A stretch of 64,000 bases of DNA from Chloroflexus aggregans DSM 9485 (GTDB lineage Bacteria; Chloroflexota; Chloroflexia; Chloroflexales; Chloroflexaceae), in assembly GCF_000021945.1 (NCBI RefSeq), contig NC_011831.1, forward strand, positions 2,245,353 to 2,309,352, in the 5' to 3' direction. Of this stretch, positions 25,546 to 39,837 are shown in pieces (the first letter of the stretch is position 1; every line of letters begins with the position of its first letter). The notes under the pieces are model-generated. The model was not told where the DNA came from. It did no database searches and saw nothing but the letters and a program-made list of their open reading frames with translations. Made by a program: the position numbers and the translations under genes.

Positions 25546-26505
25546 ATGGTGCAACGACTGGCACAGACAGCAAAGATTGGGATCGGTGTATGGTTGGCCG
25601 GGGTCACTATTGCGACCTTCTTGATCGTACCGCAGTACGAAGGGCTAGGTGAGGCTGGTCGGATTGTGATCTTTCATGTACCGACGGCGTGGGTCAGCGT
25701 TATTGCCTTTACGGTTTCAGCGATCTTCAGCGGTTTGTATCTCTGGCGGAAACGAGAACGGGATGATCATATTGCCGTTGCTGCGGCTGAAATCGGTTTG
25801 CTGTTTACCATCCTCGCCACCATTACCGGCATGATCTTTTCACAAGTGGCGTGGGGTATTTTCTGGAATTGGGATCCACGTCAGACCTCGATTTTCGTTC
25901 TGCTGCTCATCTATGCTGCTCTGTTCGCGCTCCGTTCAGCCATTGACGATGTGGATCGGCGTCGGCAACTGAGTGCAGTCTATTCACTCTTTGCCTTCGT
26001 GACAATGCCTTTTCTCTTTTTTGTTGCACCGCGGATTGCCGATAGCACGTTGCACCCCAACTGTGCCTTTATTCAAGGGAGCAACTGTGATGGTGTAGAG
26101 CTTGCAGTGGGGAAAGTTGGTTTGATCGGAGATAACAAAGTCCAGTTGCTCGGTCTTGAGCGACAGGGTAATCTCATCGTTGCCGAGGTGAAGGTGAGTA
26201 CGCCGGGTTTGCAGAATGAGGCCATCCTTTACCCTAGCCTTGATCTGGTCGATGGTGGTATGGCAGCTCGCCCCGAATTCCCCGGTTCGCGCTTCCAGCT
26301 CGGTCTTGAGGAGTATGATGAAGCACGCGGTACGGTGCGCCTCAATATGGAGGCGCCGGGTACGCAGTTGCTCGAGAATCGGCGGACACTTTACGTCTTC
26401 CTTGCGGCCAACCTCGGCTTTACCGCGCTCTTTTTCTGGATGTTACAAGTGCGCTCGTTAGTGCTAAACTTACAGTGGGCTGTTGTACAACGTGGGAGGG
26501 CCTGA
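25546..26505 (+). CDS. ccmC: Heme exporter CcmC
   Basis: 319-residue membrane protein that loads heme onto CcmE during system I cytochrome c maturation. Six or more helices are apparent. The tryptophan-rich heme motif reads WGIFWNWDPRQTS, a variant of WGxWWxWDxRLT. Conserved His sites are present (IFHVPTAWVS). The protein is about 70 residues longer than the typical enterobacterial form, because of an outside segment at about 170-280 with two Cys (HPNCAFIQGSNCDG). The next gene follows after 3 bp. Heme handling by family is established; the role of the insert is unknown. Confidence 0.93.
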   Translation: MVQRLAQTAKIGIGVWLAGVTIATFLIVPQYEGLGEAGRIVIFHVPTAWVSVIAFTVSAIFSGLYLWRKRERDDHIAVAAAEIGLLFTILATITGMIFSQVAWGIFWNWDPRQTSIFVLLLIYAALFALRSAIDDVDRRRQLSAVYSLFAFVTMPFLFFVAPRIADSTLHPNCAFIQGSNCDGVELAVGKVGLIGDNKVQLLGLERQGNLIVAEVKVSTPGLQNEAILYPSLDLVDGGMAARPEFPGSRFQLGLEEYDEARGTVRLNMEAPGTQLLENRRTLYVFLAANLGFTALFFWMLQVRSLVLNLQWAVVQRGRA

Positions 26506-26777: not shown

Positions 26778-27197
26778 ATGGCAGTTGCGAATCCCCCGTT
26801 ACGTCGAGGATTGACCATCAAACCACTGCACGTGGTAGGTCTCGGCATTATTCTGTTGGCGGTGGTGTACGGCTTCTTCGGGTTTCAAGATGGGTTTCGT
26901 GCCTACACTACCAGCGTTGATGAGGCGATGCGCAGTACGCGCAGCGTGCAGTTGGCCGGCTTTCTCGGTAGCACAGGCGAGATCGATGAGCAAGGCCGTT
27001 TCACGTTTATGCTGCAAGATGAAAACGGCAAACTGATCAAAGTCATCTCTGATGACCCACGACCGGCCAATTTCGAGCAGGCGATTAGCATTGTGGCGAT
27101 TGGTCGCTACGATCCGACCGAGCAAGCGTTTATGGCTGATGATCTGCTCGTTAAGTGCCCGTCGAAGTATCAGGAGATGAATCAGGCGAAACCGTAG
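26778..27197 (+). CDS. ccmE: Heme chaperone CcmE, CxxxY variant
   Basis: 139 residues. One N-terminal helix (about 17-34), then an OB-fold outside domain with RSVQLAGFLG, FMLQDENGKLIKVI and AIGRYDPTEQAFMADDLLVKCPSKY. The residue that binds heme covalently is normally His in HxxxY; here it is Cys127 in CPSKY. This cysteine variant is known in archaea and some bacteria and is linked to a modified system I. GAGGAG lies upstream of ATG 26778. Placed between the CcmD-like gene and ccmF. Confidence 0.92.
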   Translation: MAVANPPLRRGLTIKPLHVVGLGIILLAVVYGFFGFQDGFRAYTTSVDEAMRSTRSVQLAGFLGSTGEIDEQGRFTFMLQDENGKLIKVISDDPRPANFEQAISIVAIGRYDPTEQAFMADDLLVKCPSKYQEMNQAKP

Positions 27198-27242: not shown

Positions 27243-29639
27243 ATGTATCTCTTCGGCACGTTTTTGTTAATGGCCAGCCTCGGTATGACCCTGCTGGCGA
27301 CGATCAGCTATATATTGGTGATCCGTGGGCAGCGGGTAGCGCTAAGCTACGCCCGATTCGGCGTCTACGCTGCGCTGGCCGGCGTGCTGATGTCGTGGAC
27401 GCTACTGATCACCGTCTTTCTGGCTCGTCGTTTCGATCTTGATTATGTCTATAACTATAGCTCGCACGATCTAGAGTTTTTCTTCACCATTGCCGCCAGT
27501 TGGGCCGGGCAACCCGGTAGTTTCATGATCTGGCTGTTGTGGGGTTCAATTGCCAGCGCATTGCTGGTGCGTCGCTCGAAGCATTTTGAGCCTTACGTCC
27601 TGGCAATTGTGATGGCGACTCAGGCGGCAATTATCGGTTTTGTGTTGGTCCTTAATCCGTTCCAACCTCTGATCGATCCATCAACCGGTACAGCACTGAC
27701 CCCCACCGATGGACGCGGCCTTAATCCGTTGCTACACAATTTCTGGATGATTATCCACCCTCCGGTGCTCTTTGTGGGCTATGCCCTCACCATGATACCT
27801 TTCGCGTTTGCCTTGGCTGCCTTGTGGCGCCGTGATTACGATACGTGGGTGCAACGCGCTTTACCGTGGACGCTGGCTGCATGGGCGTTTCTTGGCCTCG
27901 CCCTCCTGCTCGGTGGCTACTGGGCTTACGAGACACTGGGTTGGGGTGGTTACTGGGGTTGGGATCCGGTCGAGAATTCGTCACTGGTACCGTGGCTGAT
28001 CCTCACAGCGCTCATCCACGGTATGTTGATCCAGCGTACCCATGGTGGTCTACGTAAGACCAATCTGGTGCTCGGTATAGCGACGTATATTACCGTCTTC
28101 TACGCTACATTTATGACCCGCAGTGGGGTCTACGCCAATTTCTCGGTGCATTCGTTCGTAGCCGAGGGTCTTTTCGAGAGGTTGGTCGGCTTTCAGATTT
28201 TCTTGCTGGCAGTGGCCGTCATTTCACTGCTGATGCGCTGGAACGATATTCCCGCCCGCCCGCTAAGCGATAAATTCTTCTCACGCGATAGCTTCTTTGT
28301 ATTGGCGATCATCACCTTGGTGATAACGGCATTGGTCGTCGGTATCGGTACTTCAATGCCGGTTATCTCGGCTATCCCCGGTGTTGGTCATACTTTGCAA
28401 GAGTGGATGGGCCGCTATTTCGAGCTTGATGACGGCACACTGATGAACCCGCAGGCCCAACCGTTTGCAGATGGTCGTTTCTCGCTGGCGCCAAGCTTTT
28501 ATCAGCGCACGGTGCCACCCTTGGGTGTGGTCGCAATTATCCTCCTGATTGTCGGGCCGTTGCTCGGTTGGCGTGACGCTAATCTCAGTCATCTGCTGCG
28601 CGCATTGCGTTGGCCGGCAGTGTTGGCCGTCGCAGCGGCGATCGTGGCTCTGATGATCAATGTCCGCGATCTGCTTGCGTTGGCATACGTCGCCGGCGGC
28701 GCGTTCGCATTCGGTACCAACTTACTGATGGTTGTGCGGACCTTGCGCGGTGGTTGGTTGCGGATCGGTGGCTATTTCGCTCACATCGGCTTTACCGTGA
28801 TGGCAATCGGTATGGTGGCCTCGTCGGCGTATGCGACGCCTGATACGCGCTTGACCCTCGCTCCCGGTGAGTCGGCCCGTCTGTTTGGGTATGAGTTCAT
28901 CTTCAATGGGTATCAGCTTGATGATCAGCAGCGCGGTGTGCTCGATTTAACAGTGAGCGACGGTACTAACACCTTCTCGGCTAAGCCTTATCTCTATTTC
29001 AACCAGCGCATGGGCGCTACTATGCAGACGCCCTCGATCCATAGCTATCTCTGGCACGATCTGTATATCTCACCGGCTGGCTATGATCCTGAGCGTGATC
29101 CCTCGCGCCCGGTGCTCGGTGTTGACCAAAGTGTTCAGATGGGGCCGTACACGCTCACGTTCCGCGGGTTTAATATCGATCGCGATGCGATGATGCGTGG
29201 TGAGGCGAAGGTTGGGGCTAAAATTGATGTGCTCTATGAAGGACAGACGATCACGGTTGAGCCGCGCGTCGAAGTGGTGACGAACTCCACTACGAACCAA
29301 GGCGAGTTGCAATATATACCGGTCACGCTACCCGGCGGTCACACTTTGTATCTGCGTGAGCTTGATCCGACGAACCGGATGGTTTTGCTCGAAGGCAGTG
29401 GCCCCGGTCTTGATGATTTGCCGGTAGTACCGGCCAAGGCGGTGATTGCGGTGAGCGTGAAGCCGCTGGTGGTGTTGGTATGGACCGGTGTCATTTTGAT
29501 GGTCATCGGTGGCGCCATCGCCTTGGTGCGTCGCTATCTCGAAGGGAGTTTGGCCTTGGCCGGTGTACGGGTCCGGCTACCTAAGGCATGGCCCGAATTG
29601 GTTGCGCAACTCGGTTGGCGAAGGATGAGTCACTCGTGA
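27243..29639 (+). CDS. ccmF: Cytochrome c heme lyase subunit CcmF
   Basis: 798-residue membrane protein that attaches heme to apocytochrome c outside the membrane. The WWD signature is intact: WAYETLGWGGYWGWDPVENSS, followed by VPWLILTALIHG. Many helices are present, with a large outside domain at about 540-740 before the last helix, as expected for CcmF. Conserved His (FWMIIHPPVLFVGYA) can ligate heme. It is 45 bp after ccmE. No CcmA, CcmB or classical CcmH gene is found in the window. Confidence 0.95.
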   Translation: MYLFGTFLLMASLGMTLLATISYILVIRGQRVALSYARFGVYAALAGVLMSWTLLITVFLARRFDLDYVYNYSSHDLEFFFTIAASWAGQPGSFMIWLLWGSIASALLVRRSKHFEPYVLAIVMATQAAIIGFVLVLNPFQPLIDPSTGTALTPTDGRGLNPLLHNFWMIIHPPVLFVGYALTMIPFAFALAALWRRDYDTWVQRALPWTLAAWAFLGLALLLGGYWAYETLGWGGYWGWDPVENSSLVPWLILTALIHGMLIQRTHGGLRKTNLVLGIATYITVFYATFMTRSGVYANFSVHSFVAEGLFERLVGFQIFLLAVAVISLLMRWNDIPARPLSDKFFSRDSFFVLAIITLVITALVVGIGTSMPVISAIPGVGHTLQEWMGRYFELDDGTLMNPQAQPFADGRFSLAPSFYQRTVPPLGVVAIILLIVGPLLGWRDANLSHLLRALRWPAVLAVAAAIVALMINVRDLLALAYVAGGAFAFGTNLLMVVRTLRGGWLRIGGYFAHIGFTVMAIGMVASSAYATPDTRLTLAPGESARLFGYEFIFNGYQLDDQQRGVLDLTVSDGTNTFSAKPYLYFNQRMGATMQTPSIHSYLWHDLYISPAGYDPERDPSRPVLGVDQSVQMGPYTLTFRGFNIDRDAMMRGEAKVGAKIDVLYEGQTITVEPRVEVVTNSTTNQGELQYIPVTLPGGHTLYLRELDPTNRMVLLEGSGPGLDDLPVVPAKAVIAVSVKPLVVLVWTGVILMVIGGAIALVRRYLEGSLALAGVRVRLPKAWPELVAQLGWRRMSHS

Positions 29640-30077: not shown

Positions 30078-31166
30078 ATGACCGACTATTACGAAATTCT
30101 ACAAGTTCATCCCAAGGCTGATGCAGAAGCGATTCGGGCCGCGTATGAACGACTACGCGAGCGTTACGCTCCCGAACGGCTAGAAGGTGCGGCTGACGAG
30201 TTAGTTGCTTTGGCACGCCAACGTCGTGATGAAATCGAACGGGCTTACGCCATATTGAGTGATCCACAACGACGTGCCGAATATGATCGGGAGCGACAGG
30301 AGTCGGCGCACGCGGAACCGAAGACGAAACATACCCCCAGTTCGTCAGCACCGATTGTTGATGATGATGAGCTTATCGATTTTCGTCCGCTACCACCGGC
30401 GCGTCGGCAAGAACGGCCACCGGGCTTCAACCCACAACCGTATCTCTCACCTACCCACAAGACATCACCCGGTCGGGGACGTGCCGTGCAACGCCAGTTG
30501 CCGGTCTGGGTCTTGCCTTCACTGGTCGTAGCCGCCGCAACGTTCAGTATTGTGCTCGGTACACTGATCAGTACGGCTGTGGTCGCGCCGACGACGCTCA
30601 CGCAGCCAACGGCTACCGTTGTTCCACCAACGCCAACCTTGCGTGAGGTGCTCGATCAGTTTGAAGGACAGGTAATCGCCGCACAACAGGTGGTAGGACA
30701 AGTGCCGGATAACCCCAACGCATGGATAAACTTGGGTAATGCGCTGTTCGACAGTGTTGTGTTTGTCCGTGAACAACTCGCTAACGGTGATGCAGAAACA
30801 CAGCGTATTTATCAGGAGCGCTTGCCGCGTTGGTTAGAAGCGGTAGACGCTTACCGCAAGGCACTAGAACTTCAACCGGGCAATGATGTGGTACGGGCCG
30901 ATATTGCTGCCAGCTTGTGCTACTACGGCCTTGATACTCGTGACCCAAAGCGAGCGCAGGAGGGGCTTGCCGAAGCCGAGAAAGCACTTGCCGCTGCCCC
31001 GCAAGATGCGCGTGTATTACTTTCACACGGTATCTGTCTGATCGCTGTTGATCCGCCACAAGTCGAACGAGCTATTCAACAGTGGCGGTTGGTATTGTCA
31101 ATCCCAGGAGTGAATCCGGGCCTGCAATTACAAGCCCAGATTCTGATCAACGAGTATAGTCAGTAA
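30078..31166 (+). CDS. J-like domain, membrane helix and TPR protein
   Basis: 362 residues. Residues 1-72 align with a DnaJ J-domain (DYYEILQVHPKADAEAIRAAY, then ERAYAILSDPQRRAEYD), but the HPD tripeptide is replaced by A-P-E (residues 31-33), so DnaK stimulation is unlikely. A Pro-rich linker leads to one membrane helix (about 143-169). The outside part (about 180-362) has TPR-type repeats: NPNAWINLGNALFD, WLEAVDAYRKALELQPGN, EGLAEAEKALAAAPQD, as in CcmH/NrfG (CcmI-like) proteins that bind apocytochrome. It directly precedes the J-like/thioredoxin gene. A role in cytochrome c assembly is inferred from context and TPR similarity. Confidence 0.8.
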   Translation: MTDYYEILQVHPKADAEAIRAAYERLRERYAPERLEGAADELVALARQRRDEIERAYAILSDPQRRAEYDRERQESAHAEPKTKHTPSSSAPIVDDDELIDFRPLPPARRQERPPGFNPQPYLSPTHKTSPGRGRAVQRQLPVWVLPSLVVAAATFSIVLGTLISTAVVAPTTLTQPTATVVPPTPTLREVLDQFEGQVIAAQQVVGQVPDNPNAWINLGNALFDSVVFVREQLANGDAETQRIYQERLPRWLEAVDAYRKALELQPGNDVVRADIAASLCYYGLDTRDPKRAQEGLAEAEKALAAAPQDARVLLSHGICLIAVDPPQVERAIQQWRLVLSIPGVNPGLQLQAQILINEYSQ

Positions 31167-31197
31167 AAGCTAACCGTACCGGTAAAGGTATGTTACA

Positions 31198-32040
31198 ATG
31201 TCAAGTATGACAGGGCATACATATTACAGTTTGCTCGGTGTTAGCCCAACTGCCGATCAGGCAGCAATAGCCGCTGCGTATGAACAGCAGCGACAACGGT
31301 ACGACCCAGCGCGTCTGGCAGACCTTGACGGTGAGCTGGCGACCATCGCTCGTCAGCGGCTCGCCGAACTAGAGCATGCCTACCACGTGCTCAGTGACCC
31401 TGAGCGTCGCCGTCAATACGATATTAGCCAGGGAATCACTGCCCCAAGCACACCACCGGTGCGACGCACCCCCAGCCGCAAAGAGGTCATCAGTGCCTTT
31501 ATCTTTTCCTTCTTGGCAGTAGGGTTGGTTGCTATCGTTTGGCTAATGACCAACCGCGATACAGTAAATACTCCACCGATGGGACAGCTCGACCGCCCAG
31601 CCCCTAACTTTACTGCACCAGAGCTACGTGGTGGAACGGTTGAACTGGCACAATATCGGGGTAGAGTAGTATTAATCAATTTTTGGGGTACGTGGTGTGA
31701 ACCGTGTAAACGCGAATTACCGGCGCTCCAGCAGGCATACGAACAGTTTGCCGAGCAGGGGTTGATGGTTATCGGCGTTAATCTTACCGATGATGAACAG
31801 GTGAACGGCAAAACGGTAGAGGACGTAGCCGCTTTTCTTGCTCAATACGGTGTCACTTATCCAATCGCTCTCGACGTTGATGGCAAGATCGCCGAGGCCT
31901 ATCGGATTTTTCCACTACCAACGAGCTATTTCGTCACTACCGATGGTCAACTCCGCTACGTACACATCGGAGAATTGACATTTGCTGACATTGCCGCTCG
32001 CTTTGCTGAGTTGCGCCCGGTCGGTGATAAGCAGCCGTAA
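31198..32040 (+). CDS. J-like domain fused to membrane-anchored thioredoxin (CcmG/ResA-like)
   Basis: 280 residues. Residues 8-75 form a J-like domain (YYSLLGVSPTADQAAIAAAY, AYHVLSDPERRRQYD) with Y-D-P-A-R in place of the HPD loop. A single helix follows (about 97-118). Outside lies a TlpA/ResA-type thioredoxin domain (about 130-275), with active site WCEPC (166-170), NFWGTWCEPCKRELPAL, and the cis-Pro in FPLPTSYF. Such thioredoxins reduce the CxxCH cysteines of apocytochromes. A cytosolic J-like head on a CcmG-type reductase is an unusual design, and the previous gene has the same head. The two proteins may pair through these heads. Confidence 0.85.
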   Translation: MSSMTGHTYYSLLGVSPTADQAAIAAAYEQQRQRYDPARLADLDGELATIARQRLAELEHAYHVLSDPERRRQYDISQGITAPSTPPVRRTPSRKEVISAFIFSFLAVGLVAIVWLMTNRDTVNTPPMGQLDRPAPNFTAPELRGGTVELAQYRGRVVLINFWGTWCEPCKRELPALQQAYEQFAEQGLMVIGVNLTDDEQVNGKTVEDVAAFLAQYGVTYPIALDVDGKIAEAYRIFPLPTSYFVTTDGQLRYVHIGELTFADIAARFAELRPVGDKQP

Positions 32041-32058
32041 GTGTGTTGGGGTGAGGCA

Positions 32059-32742
32059 ATGGAACAGCAGTATACCATCTTGGTTGTTGATGACGACGAT
32101 GGCCTGCAAGAGTTAGTACGGGTACGGCTGGAACAAGAAGGTTATCGCGTGTTACAGACGATCAGTGGTATTGAAGCAATTTCGCTGATCCGTCAACAGC
32201 GACCCGACCTGGTCATCCTCGACATCATGCTGCCCGATCTTGATGGGCTGACGGTTTGTCAACGTGTGCGTGAATTCGCGTCAACCCCGATTTTGATGCT
32301 TACGGCTAAGGCGGCCTCAAGAGATATTATCACCGGTCTCGATCAAGGGGCCGATGATTATCTTACCAAACCGTTCAACTACGATGAACTGCTGGCTCGT
32401 ATTCGTACCCTGCTCCGTCGCGTGCCATCTGTTAATCGCCCGCTCACCGTCGGCAATGGTTTGATCACAATTAACCCACGCCAACGCGAGGTTCGCGTGC
32501 GGGGTACAATCATCGATCTCACCCCCACCGAGTATCAACTGCTGATGGTTCTGGCCGAACAGGCCGGGGCAGTGGTAACGCACGAGCAGTTACTGCGTGC
32601 AGTGTGGGGTAATGAGCCGAACCGCGACAACGATTATCTGAAGGTCTATATCTGGCATCTGCGGCGCAAGATCGAATTTGATCCTCGCCAACCGCAACTG
32701 TTGCTCACCGAATGGGGAGTAGGGTATCGCCTCCTTCCCTAA
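32059..32742 (+). CDS. OmpR/PhoB-type response regulator
   Basis: 227 residues from ATG 32059 with GGGTGAGG upstream; the frame opens at 32041 directly after the previous stop. Receiver domain: LVVDDDDGLQEL, phosphoacceptor in LVILDIMLPDLDG, switch Lys in LTKPFNYDEL. The C-terminal winged helix has LTPTEYQLLMVLAEQ and DNDYLKVYIWHLRRKIE. No histidine kinase is adjacent. It follows the J-like thioredoxin gene by 18 bp and may share its transcript. Target genes unknown. Confidence 0.92.
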   Translation: MEQQYTILVVDDDDGLQELVRVRLEQEGYRVLQTISGIEAISLIRQQRPDLVILDIMLPDLDGLTVCQRVREFASTPILMLTAKAASRDIITGLDQGADDYLTKPFNYDELLARIRTLLRRVPSVNRPLTVGNGLITINPRQREVRVRGTIIDLTPTEYQLLMVLAEQAGAVVTHEQLLRAVWGNEPNRDNDYLKVYIWHLRRKIEFDPRQPQLLLTEWGVGYRLLP

Positions 32743-37251: not shown

Positions 37252-39696
37252 TTATTGCGGCGGTGCAATCTCGAGGCGGCTAATCAGTTTGTTCTGATTC
37301 CAATCAGCCGCATTAACTTGCAACACGAAGTAGGTAGCAACCGTCGGGTCGCCCTTCGCGTTAAACTTGAACGTACCGGTAATGCCGGGGAAGGGCGGCA
37401 AATTACGGATCGCCTCCAGGACTTGGGCGCGAGTTGGCTTTCCACCGGCAGTGATCGCAGCCGACAAGATACCGGCAGCGCAAATGTTGGCTGCGTCGTA
37501 GGCTTGGGCCGAGAAGGGTGGAGCACCTTCACCGTAGGCAGCCTGGTAGTCGGCAGCATACTTCGCAGCCTTGGGGAACTGGCTCACCGGCGCAGCGACC
37601 GAGGTGTAGTACATCTTGTCGACGGCATCGCCGGCCAGCTTCGCCAACTCTTCGGAGTCGAGACCGTCGGGACCCATGAACTGAGCGGTGATGCCGCGGT
37701 CACGGGCTTGGCGGAAGAACGGACCGGCCTGGTCGTAAATCCCACCGAAGAAAATCAGGTCAGGATTGGCGGCCAAAATCGGCGTGAGGATTGCCGAAAA
37801 GTCACTCTTCTCTTCGGTACCCTCGAAGCCGAGCACCTGGATACCGTTCGCCTCTGCCGCTTTGCGGAAGAACTCGGCAACACCCTGCCCGTAGGCGGTG
37901 GTGTCGTGGATGATGTACACCGACTTAATCTTCAGCTCTTCGCGGGCGAACTTCTCGGCCACCGAGCCTTGCACATCGTCGCGACCGACGACGCGGAAGG
38001 CAACCTCATACCCACCCTCGGTGATGTTGGGGTTGGTATTGGCAGGCGAGACCATTGCCAGCCGGGCATTCTTGTAGTCCGGCAGGGCTGCCAGCGCCAC
38101 ACCGGAGTTCAGGTGCCCAACGACGCAGAGGATATCCGCGTCCGACACGATATTCTTCGCGTTCGCCGACCCAACCTCCGGCTTCGCCTGATCGTCGAAC
38201 GGCACGACCTCAAACTTGACTCCCAAGGCGCTCAGTTGGCTGTTAATCTCTTCGATTGCCAGCTCAACCGCATTCTTCATACCGGTACCGAGCGCAGCCT
38301 GCCCACCGGACAGCGGGCCTTGCGTAGCAATCTTGATCGTGCCGAGCTTACCGGCTACCGCGCTCAATTGTGCAGCCAGGGCTGCCAGATCAAACTCGGT
38401 TGTACCACCACCGGTCGTGCCGCCAGCAGTCTCTGCACCGGGCGGTGCAATTTCAAGTCGGCTCACCAGCCGGTTGCTGTTCCAATCAGCCGCGTTGACC
38501 TGCAACACGAAGTAGGTAGCGACCGTCGGGTCTCCCTTCTCATTAAAAGTGTACGTGCCGGTAATGCCCTTGTAGGCAGACAGCTTCTTGATCTCATTGA
38601 GAACCTGCTCACGAGTCGGCTTTCCACCGGCTGCCTTCGCCGCATTCGCAATCGCAGTAAGGCAGATACCGGTCGCATCGTAAGCTTGGGCCGAGAAGGG
38701 TGGTGCGTCTTCACCGTAAGCCGCCTTGTAATCGGCGGCATACTTTGCTGCATCAGGGAACTGGCTCACCGGCGCAGCGACCGAGGTGTAGTACATCTTG
38801 TCGACGGCATCGCCGGCCAGCTTCGCCAACTCTTCGGAGTCGAGACCGTCGGGACCCATGAACTGAGCGGTGATGCCGCGGTCACGGGCTTGGCGGAAGA
38901 ACGGACCGGCCTGGTCGTAAATCCCACCGAAGAAAATCAGGTCAGGATTGGCGGCCAAAATCGGCGTGAGGATTGCCGAAAAGTCACTCTTCTCTTCGGT
39001 ACCCTCGAAGCCGAGCACCTGGATACCGTTCGCCTCTGCCGCTTTGCGGAAGAACTCGGCAACACCCTGCCCGTAGGCGGTGGTGTCGTGGATGATGTAC
39101 ACCGACTTAATCTTCAGCTCTTCGCGGGCGAACTTCTCGGCCACCGAGCCTTGCACATCGTCGCGACCGACGACGCGGAAGGCAACCTCATACCCACCCT
39201 CGGTGATGTTGGGGTTGGTATTGGCAGGCGAGACCATTGCCAGCCGGGCATTCTTGTAGTCCGGCAGGGCTGCCAGCGCCACACCGGAGTTCAGGTGCCC
39301 AACGACGCAGAGGATATCCGCGTCCGACACGATATTCTTCGCGTTCGCCGACCCAACCTCCGGCTTCGCCTGATCGTCGAACGGTGCCAGCTCAACCCGG
39401 AAGCCGAGTTCAGCAAGTGGGCCAGACAGTTGCTTGACTGCCAGCTCGGCGGCATTCTTCATACCGGTACCGAGCGCAGCCTGCCCACCGGACAGCGGGC
39501 CTTGCGTAGCAATCTTAATAACTTGTGCCGGTGCTGCCGTGGTTGGTTGTGGCGCAGCGGTTGGTGCCGGGGCCGTGGTAGCCTGTGTAGCCGGCTGAGG
39601 GGTTGCTGTCGGCTGTGCCTGACCACCACCGCCACAGGCGGCAAGCATGGAGGCCAGCATACCGACCAGCAGGAACAGACTGATCGCACGCTTCAT
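37252..39696 (-). CDS. Tandem double LivJ-type substrate-binding lipoprotein
   Basis: 814 residues from ATG 39696 with AAGGAG upstream; the frame continues upstream to 39819 but the signal peptide fixes the start. Lipobox SMLAAC puts the lipidated Cys at 21, followed by a Pro/Thr/Ala linker. Two full Peripla_BP_6 (type I) domains follow, each starting KIATQGPLSGGQAALGTGMK and ending ISRLEIAPP, joined by a Gly/Thr linker (GGTTGGGTTEF). A single domain is normal; this gene has two fused in frame. The middle parts are identical over 629 bp while the ends differ by about 20%. It should feed LivHMGF. Two lobes may bind two ligands at once or differ in specificity. Confidence 0.93.
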   Translation of the reverse strand: MKRAISLFLLVGMLASMLAACGGGGQAQPTATPQPATQATTAPAPTAAPQPTTAAPAQVIKIATQGPLSGGQAALGTGMKNAAELAVKQLSGPLAELGFRVELAPFDDQAKPEVGSANAKNIVSDADILCVVGHLNSGVALAALPDYKNARLAMVSPANTNPNITEGGYEVAFRVVGRDDVQGSVAEKFAREELKIKSVYIIHDTTAYGQGVAEFFRKAAEANGIQVLGFEGTEEKSDFSAILTPILAANPDLIFFGGIYDQAGPFFRQARDRGITAQFMGPDGLDSEELAKLAGDAVDKMYYTSVAAPVSQFPDAAKYAADYKAAYGEDAPPFSAQAYDATGICLTAIANAAKAAGGKPTREQVLNEIKKLSAYKGITGTYTFNEKGDPTVATYFVLQVNAADWNSNRLVSRLEIAPPGAETAGGTTGGGTTEFDLAALAAQLSAVAGKLGTIKIATQGPLSGGQAALGTGMKNAVELAIEEINSQLSALGVKFEVVPFDDQAKPEVGSANAKNIVSDADILCVVGHLNSGVALAALPDYKNARLAMVSPANTNPNITEGGYEVAFRVVGRDDVQGSVAEKFAREELKIKSVYIIHDTTAYGQGVAEFFRKAAEANGIQVLGFEGTEEKSDFSAILTPILAANPDLIFFGGIYDQAGPFFRQARDRGITAQFMGPDGLDSEELAKLAGDAVDKMYYTSVAAPVSQFPKAAKYAADYQAAYGEGAPPFSAQAYDAANICAAGILSAAITAGGKPTRAQVLEAIRNLPPFPGITGTFKFNAKGDPTVATYFVLQVNAADWNQNKLISRLEIAPPQ
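37574..39384. repeat. 629-bp perfect direct repeat in the binding-protein gene
   Basis: Bases 37574-38202 equal 38756-39384 at every position I compared, with a displacement of 1182 bp. A further 60-bp identical block follows (38276-38335 and 39458-39517). Flanking homologous parts are only about 80% alike, which points to gene conversion rather than simple recent duplication. Confidence 0.9.
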
Positions 39697-39837
39697 AACC
39701 GACTTCTCCTTAGTTTCAAATCGGTAATCTGCCTTCCCCACGTGGTACTGATCACAACGTAAGAAACAAGTCGCACTTAGCCGACTTTGCGCACCATTGC
39801 GTCGTGAACAATTAACCACAGTGGATGACAGTAGGCG

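Follow-up and report, generated by a model that had tools for sequence, protein, structure and literature searches.

Two adjacent genes of Chloroflexus aggregans DSM 9485, lying directly behind ccmC, ccmE and ccmF, encode membrane proteins whose N-terminal heads keep the fold of a J domain and have lost its HPD loop and basic helix II face. One head is joined to a tetratricopeptide repeat (TPR) module and the other to a thioredoxin. Because the part of the J domain that drives DnaK is lost and yet the modules are kept by selection, our results suggest that J modules have been rebuilt here as a docking scaffold for haem attachment. The genes come from a 64,000-nucleotide stretch (the window) of a genome that is a single contig of 4,684,931 bases.

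The locus reads, on the plus strand, ccmC (25546), ccmE (26778), ccmF (27243), the TPR gene JTPR (30078-31166), the thioredoxin gene JTRX (31198-32040) and a response regulator gene (32041). An earlier note on this DNA had placed two HPD-less J genes directly behind the ccm genes, and both the open reading frames and the Pfam and NCBIfam matches upstream confirm this. The product of ccmC (25546..26505), a haem-handling membrane protein, matches NCBIfam TIGR01191 at 3.5e-29 (102 bits, below the cut-off of 186) and Pfam PF01578 above its cut-off. The ccmE gene (26778..27197) encodes a Cys-type protein with the KCPSKY haem-binding motif of System I* (PF03100, 9.8e-11), and ccmF/nrfE (27243..29639), the haem lyase gene, matches TIGR00353 at 3.9e-75 (below cut-off) and both PF01578 and PF16327 above cut-off. 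The response regulator (32041..32742, with an alternative ATG at 32059), of the OmpR type by eye, is the usual downstream neighbour: in 73 of 75 loci it lies no more than 500 bases beyond the thioredoxin gene.

This arrangement is conserved across the order. Of 73 TPR loci, 67 have ccmF less than 1 kb upstream, and the other six are all within about 0.8 kb of a contig end, so that the ccm linkage whose loss in related genomes the earlier note had named as a possible refutation holds. The thioredoxin gene follows the TPR gene within 2.6 kb in 63 of the 73 loci; the two are truly separated in four genomes (G039, G040, G057 and G059), and six further exceptions lie less than 1.2 kb from a contig end. 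These thresholds miss cut pieces, namely a ccmF fragment in L063 (one of the six contig-end loci), a thioredoxin fragment in L050 and a regulator fragment in L091. Five loci in four genomes (L122-L126; G031 twice, G059, G062 and G053) contain a second J-thioredoxin gene next to a second ccmF or a fragment of it. These copies are more diverged than the main gene; their heads also lack HPD and end before the usual last helix, and that of L125, whose neighbours are a CcdA-type gene, DUF3105 and CtaG, receives no Pfam DnaJ call. Elsewhere in the window, an 855-residue open reading frame on the minus strand (37252-39819) appears by eye to hold two very similar tandem copies of a substrate-binding protein and adjoins ABC transporter genes.

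JTPR (30078..31166, plus strand; 362 residues) consists of a J-like head, a conserved and probably cytosolic motif, one membrane helix and a TPR module. The head (residues 1-78; 30078..30311) matches Pfam DnaJ (PF00226) at 5e-13 and 49.4 bits (cut-off 27.8), with APE in the HPD slot (residues 31-33; 30168-30176); in the AlphaFold2 model its helices span residues 4-7, 16-29, 40-61 and 63-78. The loose linker that follows (residues 98-121; 30369..30440) carries the motif DFRPLPPARRQERP, which we write as DYRPLPPA..QERP..FN.QP for the family; the window reads DFRPLPPA, and D101, P104 and L105 are invariant in 32 sequences. The DNA pattern of the DYRPLPPA motif has a single site in the whole genome. 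The protein pattern D[YF]xPL[PST] occurs in 67 of 73 TPR proteins; of the six others, five come from cut or frame-broken genes and one reads DYRPLAP. Beyond the membrane helix (residues 144-167; 30507..30578; model helix 145-167), a Pro/Thr-rich stalk leads to the TPR module (residues 191-362; 30648..31163), which is outside in our reading. The module had been likened to CcmI/NrfG. TPR helices are indeed present in the AlphaFold2 model, in line with weak Pfam TPR-family matches, but the likeness to CcmI is weak: the curated CcmI TPR family PF23914 scores 26.7 bits, below its cut-off of 42, and matches 18 of 32 members at E up to 0.001. A fold search was not decisive for CcmI identity, returning TatT/TPAT-like and 14-3-3 matches at Z 14.0-15.8, scores common for helical repeats.

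JTRX (31198..32040, plus strand; 280 residues) combines a J-like head, one membrane helix and a ResA-type thioredoxin. Its head (residues 8-80; 31219..31437) matches PF00226 at 1.3e-11 and 44.8 bits (cut-off 27.8), carries DPA in the HPD slot (residues 36-38; 31303-31311) and is modelled by AlphaFold2 with helices at 9-13, 21-34, 45-66 and 68-77. The membrane helix (residues 94-118 in both sequence and model; 31477..31551) is followed by the thioredoxin domain (residues 130-275; 31585..32022; PF00578, 1.1e-32) with the active site WCEPC at 31693-31707. This domain had been called CcmG-type. It is a membrane-anchored thioredoxin fold with WCEPC; however, the best solved match listed for its model was ResA (Z 23.0, rmsd 1.3, 137 residues aligned), and CcmG structures came lower (Z 17.4 to 18.1). 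In both proteins, basic residues precede the membrane helix, which suggests that the heads are cytosolic and the TPR and thioredoxin modules outside. Four head-less thioredoxins (L053, L058, L105 and L109) have SRRE (DRRE in L105) before the membrane helix, resembling a twin-arginine signal; other members read SQRE, TPRE or SRKE.

The Pfam DnaJ matches above cut-off in both heads mean that the J fold is no chance reading, and together with the AlphaFold2 models, which show J helices in both heads at a block pLDDT mostly above 90, they rule out misread J domains. The architecture described from the letters alone, J-like heads with the HPD loop lost (A-P-E and D-P-A), one membrane helix and then TPR repeats or a WCEPC thioredoxin, is confirmed. 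The four other J proteins found in the same genome all read HPD. HPD loss is not private to this strain: of 124 relatives in the order (64 TPR and 60 thioredoxin heads, five of the latter being paralogues linked to the second ccmF), 0 have HPD in the slot. This count leaves out the window's two heads and those without a phmmer match, among them the degenerate heads of G048 and G049, which were judged by eye. Intact HPD loops in homologues had been named as a second possible refutation, and none of these heads has one. The head of L067 contains the letters HPD in its last helix, outside the slot. Among TPR heads the slot most often reads DPA or APE, with HAE in one; among thioredoxin heads it most often reads NPE or RAD, with deletions at this place in a few. 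Of 35 J matches elsewhere that cover the head only, 31 keep HPD. This set (L231-L265) was selected for its resemblance to the query, being 35 of 80 loci kept from 250; several of its titles say only 'Chloroflexi bacterium', and membership of another order may not hold for each.

The DnaK-facing basic surface of helix II is also lost in both head types. Mean net charge of this helix is +1.46 in 39 HPD J domains, −0.53 in the 64 TPR heads and −0.28 in the 60 thioredoxin heads. An Arg or Lys stands seven places ahead of HPD in 98% of HPD domains; about 60% of TPR heads and about 70% of thioredoxin heads have Glu, Ala or Gln there. For the most part, the heads keep the hydrophobic core and, in the last helix, the DP..RR..YD signature. 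The rebuilt loop of the TPR heads has conserved residues of its own (R-6, Leu+4, Gly+6, Leu+9 and Arg+14) and is gap-free in the 32 TPR sequences of alignment A1. Some thioredoxin heads have diverged strongly: 6 of 30 members of alignment A2, including L062 (genus g34) and the paralogue L125, receive no Pfam DnaJ call, and those of g25 and g28 have deletions in the loop region. Another HPD-less J-like head, with GAD or GDD in the slot, occurs in L247, L253 and L265 (Dehalococcoidia or Chloroflexota MAGs), and in L253 and L265 it precedes a Cys-rich zinc-type region and membrane helices, with fabZ- and rny-like neighbours by eye. In one Chloroflexota MAG, a single protein (L261:2-1366) runs from a J domain with intact HPD through a membrane helix to a redoxin domain.

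A tree of 93 J domains (86 columns) separated 54 representative heads from 39 HPD domains with branch support of 100/98. When the HPD columns were cut and four other HPD-less J domains (L247, L253, L265 and L258) were added, the heads still grouped (97/97; 98% of bootstrap trees) and the four additions fell with the HPD domains, which rules out HPD loss alone as the driver of the grouping. Since the heads form one group with the HPD columns in or out, it is probable that two effectors each received a copy of a single HPD-less head. In the first tree, the thioredoxin heads are largely but not wholly separate from the TPR heads (the four labels need 4 changes, minimum 3), which fits a duplication within the operon; the few columns make the inner forks uncertain.

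The heads are under selection and show no decay, at least in the one genus sampled, because their dN/dS is about 0.05, as against about 0.5 for the linkers. For 8 JTPR and 7 JTRX sequences (G008's JTRX was left out), the respective medians were 0.048 and 0.047 in the heads, 0.030 and 0.025 in the outer modules, and 0.54 and 0.48 in the linkers; these values are rough, as 2 to 17 pairs per segment have saturated dS. The DYRPLPPA segment, only 24 codons long, has the lowest value of all segments (0.019).

Both designs appear confined to the order. Among the matches listed from 158 genomes across the class, all those that extend over the TPR module came from the order, as did every match covering the JTRX head among those listed for 400 genomes of the phylum; these were best matches, and weaker J-thioredoxin or J-TPR genes outside the order may be missed. 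Named relatives include Chloroflexus islandicus, Oscillochloris, Candidatus Chloroploca, Candidatus Viridilinea and Roseiflexus. Close JTPR relatives in records labelled Cyanobacteria bacterium M5B4 (L212) and Candidatus Gracilibacteria (L226) are possibly misbinned Chloroflexales contigs. At ccm loci of other orders of the class, a J head was found on none of the thioredoxins at the 10 loci with a thioredoxin match.

Within the order, 52 of 82 genomes have both heads (a class that includes cut or frame-broken genes in G017, G019, G020 and G034 and a shortened loop in G059), ten have the TPR head only, six have neither, one has the TPR head with a degenerate thioredoxin head, and two have a thioredoxin head and no detected TPR gene; in the remaining 11, at least one of the two ends was unassembled or not found, and the state of 24 genomes was assigned by hand. 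The ten with the TPR head only span five genera (g10, g17, g24, g27 and g32). The six with neither are all of g20, in which the ccmC, ccmE, ccmF, TPR, thioredoxin and regulator genes are nevertheless present. The two genomes with the thioredoxin head only are fragmented MAGs (G028 and G062), where searches with alignment A1 and via ccmF found no TPR gene; G060, G061 and G018 are uninformative, their contigs ending just after or inside ccmF. The TPR head thus occurs alone in several lineages and the reverse only in two fragmented assemblies, which argues against obligatory pairing and speaks for the TPR head as the primary one.

In its sequence features, the locus fits a System I* cytochrome c maturation locus of Chloroflexales. 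CcmE is of the Cys type, with CPSKY, in the window and in 63 of 63 loci of the order with ccmE, and all 15 CcmE proteins read from other orders of the class are also of the Cys type. CcmH was found in 0 of 82 genomes of the order by a search that detected it in 4 of 14 controls, and this absence fits System I* as described. CcmB (67.5 bits at G000:C1:3100390) and a CcdA-type gene lie elsewhere in the same genome. The earlier note had held that CcmG and CcmH functions are otherwise missing; for CcmH this stands, but the genome encodes at least two further redoxins of the JTRX type (C1:1683126 and C1:427214, among the matches listed), so CcmG-type activity is not unique to JTRX. The accessible sections of a 2011 review (PMC3601427) describe System I* as having a CcmE of the Cys type and, as a rule, no CcmH, although about a third of such systems contain one; they give CPSKY as its commonest motif and name some Chloroflexi, Desulfovibrio and archaea among its owners. 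The present locus shares with that description CPSKY CcmE, the absence of CcmH, the presence of CcmC and CcmF, and a CcmB, here encoded elsewhere in the genome. It differs in the TPR protein and ResA-type reductase of the operon, mostly with J-like heads, of which those sections make no mention.

We infer, with moderate confidence, that the heads are a DnaK-independent cytosolic docking module for the System I* haem-ligation complex. ResA-type proteins are reductases of apocytochrome c, and TPR proteins of the CcmI type hold this substrate for CcmF. An ordinary J domain would most likely be the single ancestor of the head; it would have lost the DnaK-activating loop and basic helix, gained a conserved loop of its own (YxPxRLxGxxxEL) and then been duplicated within the operon, onto the TPR protein and the ResA-type reductase. 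Outside the membrane, the TPR protein would probably act as apocytochrome holder and the ResA-type protein as thiol reductase. The heads would tether the TPR protein, and in many species also the reductase, to the CcmF haem-ligation machinery on its inner side, such that reduced apocytochrome could be handed to CcmF. The heads might dock on CcmF, on CcmC, on a cytosolic protein or on each other; the products of three J genes in tandem in G073 were considered as candidate partners and set aside, all of them having HPD. The earlier prediction that such heads should not activate DnaK agrees with our results, for with HPD in 0 of 124 heads and the basic helix II lost a DnaK-independent role is likeliest. 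Against docking, both heads are gone in g20 and the thioredoxin head in the ten genomes with the TPR head only, so the heads are dispensable in some lineages; the 6 of 30 A2 members that escape Pfam are strongly diverged; and the CcmI-like role of the TPR module rests on a sub-threshold match. Known System I* sets also manage without such helpers. In E. coli, a Desulfovibrio set makes cytochromes with neither CcmH nor CcmG, and CcmI does no more than improve the yield (PMC3601427); in Methanosarcina CcmG and CcdA are inessential, their loss having changed little (PMC9084895); by the same token, the JTPR and JTRX helpers may be inessential here too.

What the heads would bind can be read in several ways. 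They may bind each other, as in a Pam16-Pam18-like pair with HPD lost on both sides, and thereby join the apocytochrome holder to the thiol reductase, a reading that overlaps with docking. The two heads group together in the tree and are both kept in the 52 genomes, including three in which the genes are unlinked (G039, G040 and G059), and J-like regions are able to interact: CJD1 with ARC6 in yeast two-hybrid assays (PMC3196505) and Pam16 with Pam18 as a heterodimer (PMC3806816). We nevertheless consider it rather doubtful. The TPR head lacks its counterpart in the ten genomes of five genera, the two fragmented MAGs show a thioredoxin head with the TPR gene undetected, and the 5.7 to 11 kb stretches around the second J-thioredoxins contain no TPR gene, with one elsewhere in three of the four genomes. 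Pairing as the defining design, which the earlier note had put forward, is therefore unsupported as stated, given the five genera with the TPR head only and the unlinked genes of G039, G040, G057 and G059; pairing may occur and is not obligatory. It is possible, if tentative, that docking in the cytosol falls mainly to the DYRPLPPA motif instead, with the head doing no more than tuning or shielding it, which again overlaps with the preferred reading. The low dN/dS of the motif, its presence in 67 of 73 TPR proteins and the survival of its core in the six head-less g20 proteins point that way. However, the segment is short, and its QERP..FN.QP half is lost along with the head in g20, so that motif and head may work together.

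Two further explanations are less likely. The heads could be remnants, serving only as a cytosolic stop or membrane-insertion leader, as their repeated absence and strong divergence (g34 and g20-g22) and the loop-region deletions of the g25 and g28 thioredoxin heads might indicate. The head dN/dS near 0.05, the gap-free rebuilt loop with its own conserved residues and the retention of both heads in 52 of 82 genomes make this unlikely. Pam16 lacks HPD and is the partner of the J protein Pam18. By analogy with that pair (PMC3806816), the heads could dock on an HPD-bearing J protein or on DnaK and tune it, linking cytochrome maturation to chaperones, and the four HPD J proteins of the genome are available for this. 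We regard it as quite improbable, because HPD and the basic helix II face are both gone and the operon stretches of L037-L121 contain no J-bearing frame besides the heads and their broken or cut pieces.

In design, these proteins differ from the known relatives of each of their parts. Like ResA and CcmG, JTRX is a membrane-anchored thioredoxin fold with WCEPC; unlike them, in most genomes of the order it has an N-terminal J-like head of about 75 residues. JTPR shares with CcmI and NrfG a membrane-anchored TPR module beside ccmF, but has one membrane helix and a J-like head, whereas CcmI has two helices and a short cytoplasmic region (PMC3884852). With the J co-chaperones of DnaK the heads have the fold in common, HPD and the basic helix II being gone. 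Pam16 and CJD1/ARC6/ZipN resemble the heads in a J-like domain, membrane association and a protein-binding role; they differ in pathway and domain order and have no outer thioredoxin or TPR module. A bacterial HPD-less J domain as a DnaK-independent binding module has a known precedent, by analogy, in chloroplast CJD1: an E. coli strain mutant in dnaJ and cbpA was not rescued by its HPD-less J-like domain, and in yeast two-hybrid assays this domain bound a region of ARC6 that includes ARC6's own J-like domain (PMC3196505). The J-like domain assignment of ZipN has been called unclear (PMC6391411). The claim that no such system had been described stands in part: searches of the open-licence PMC literature showed, by title or opening of the abstract, no ccm operon in which HPD-less J heads are borne by a TPR protein and a thiol reductase on the outside, but System I*, Pam16 and CJD1 are known.

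A broader proposal, which we offer tentatively, is that a J domain relieved of Hsp70 activation became a reusable cytosolic coupling tag, placed on two unrelated outer proteins and carried by a second thioredoxin next to a second ccmF, and assembles the outer haem-ligation complex from the inside through the heads and the DYRPLPPA motif. The two candidate helpers, which stand beside ccmF across most of the order, bear on how CcmF functions without CcmH in System I*. They also form a bacterial set with built-in controls, carrying the head on both proteins, on one or on neither, for what the J fold does once it is apart from DnaK. If docking is true, J-like domains would be assembly tags for bacterial membrane complexes, as they are in organelles.
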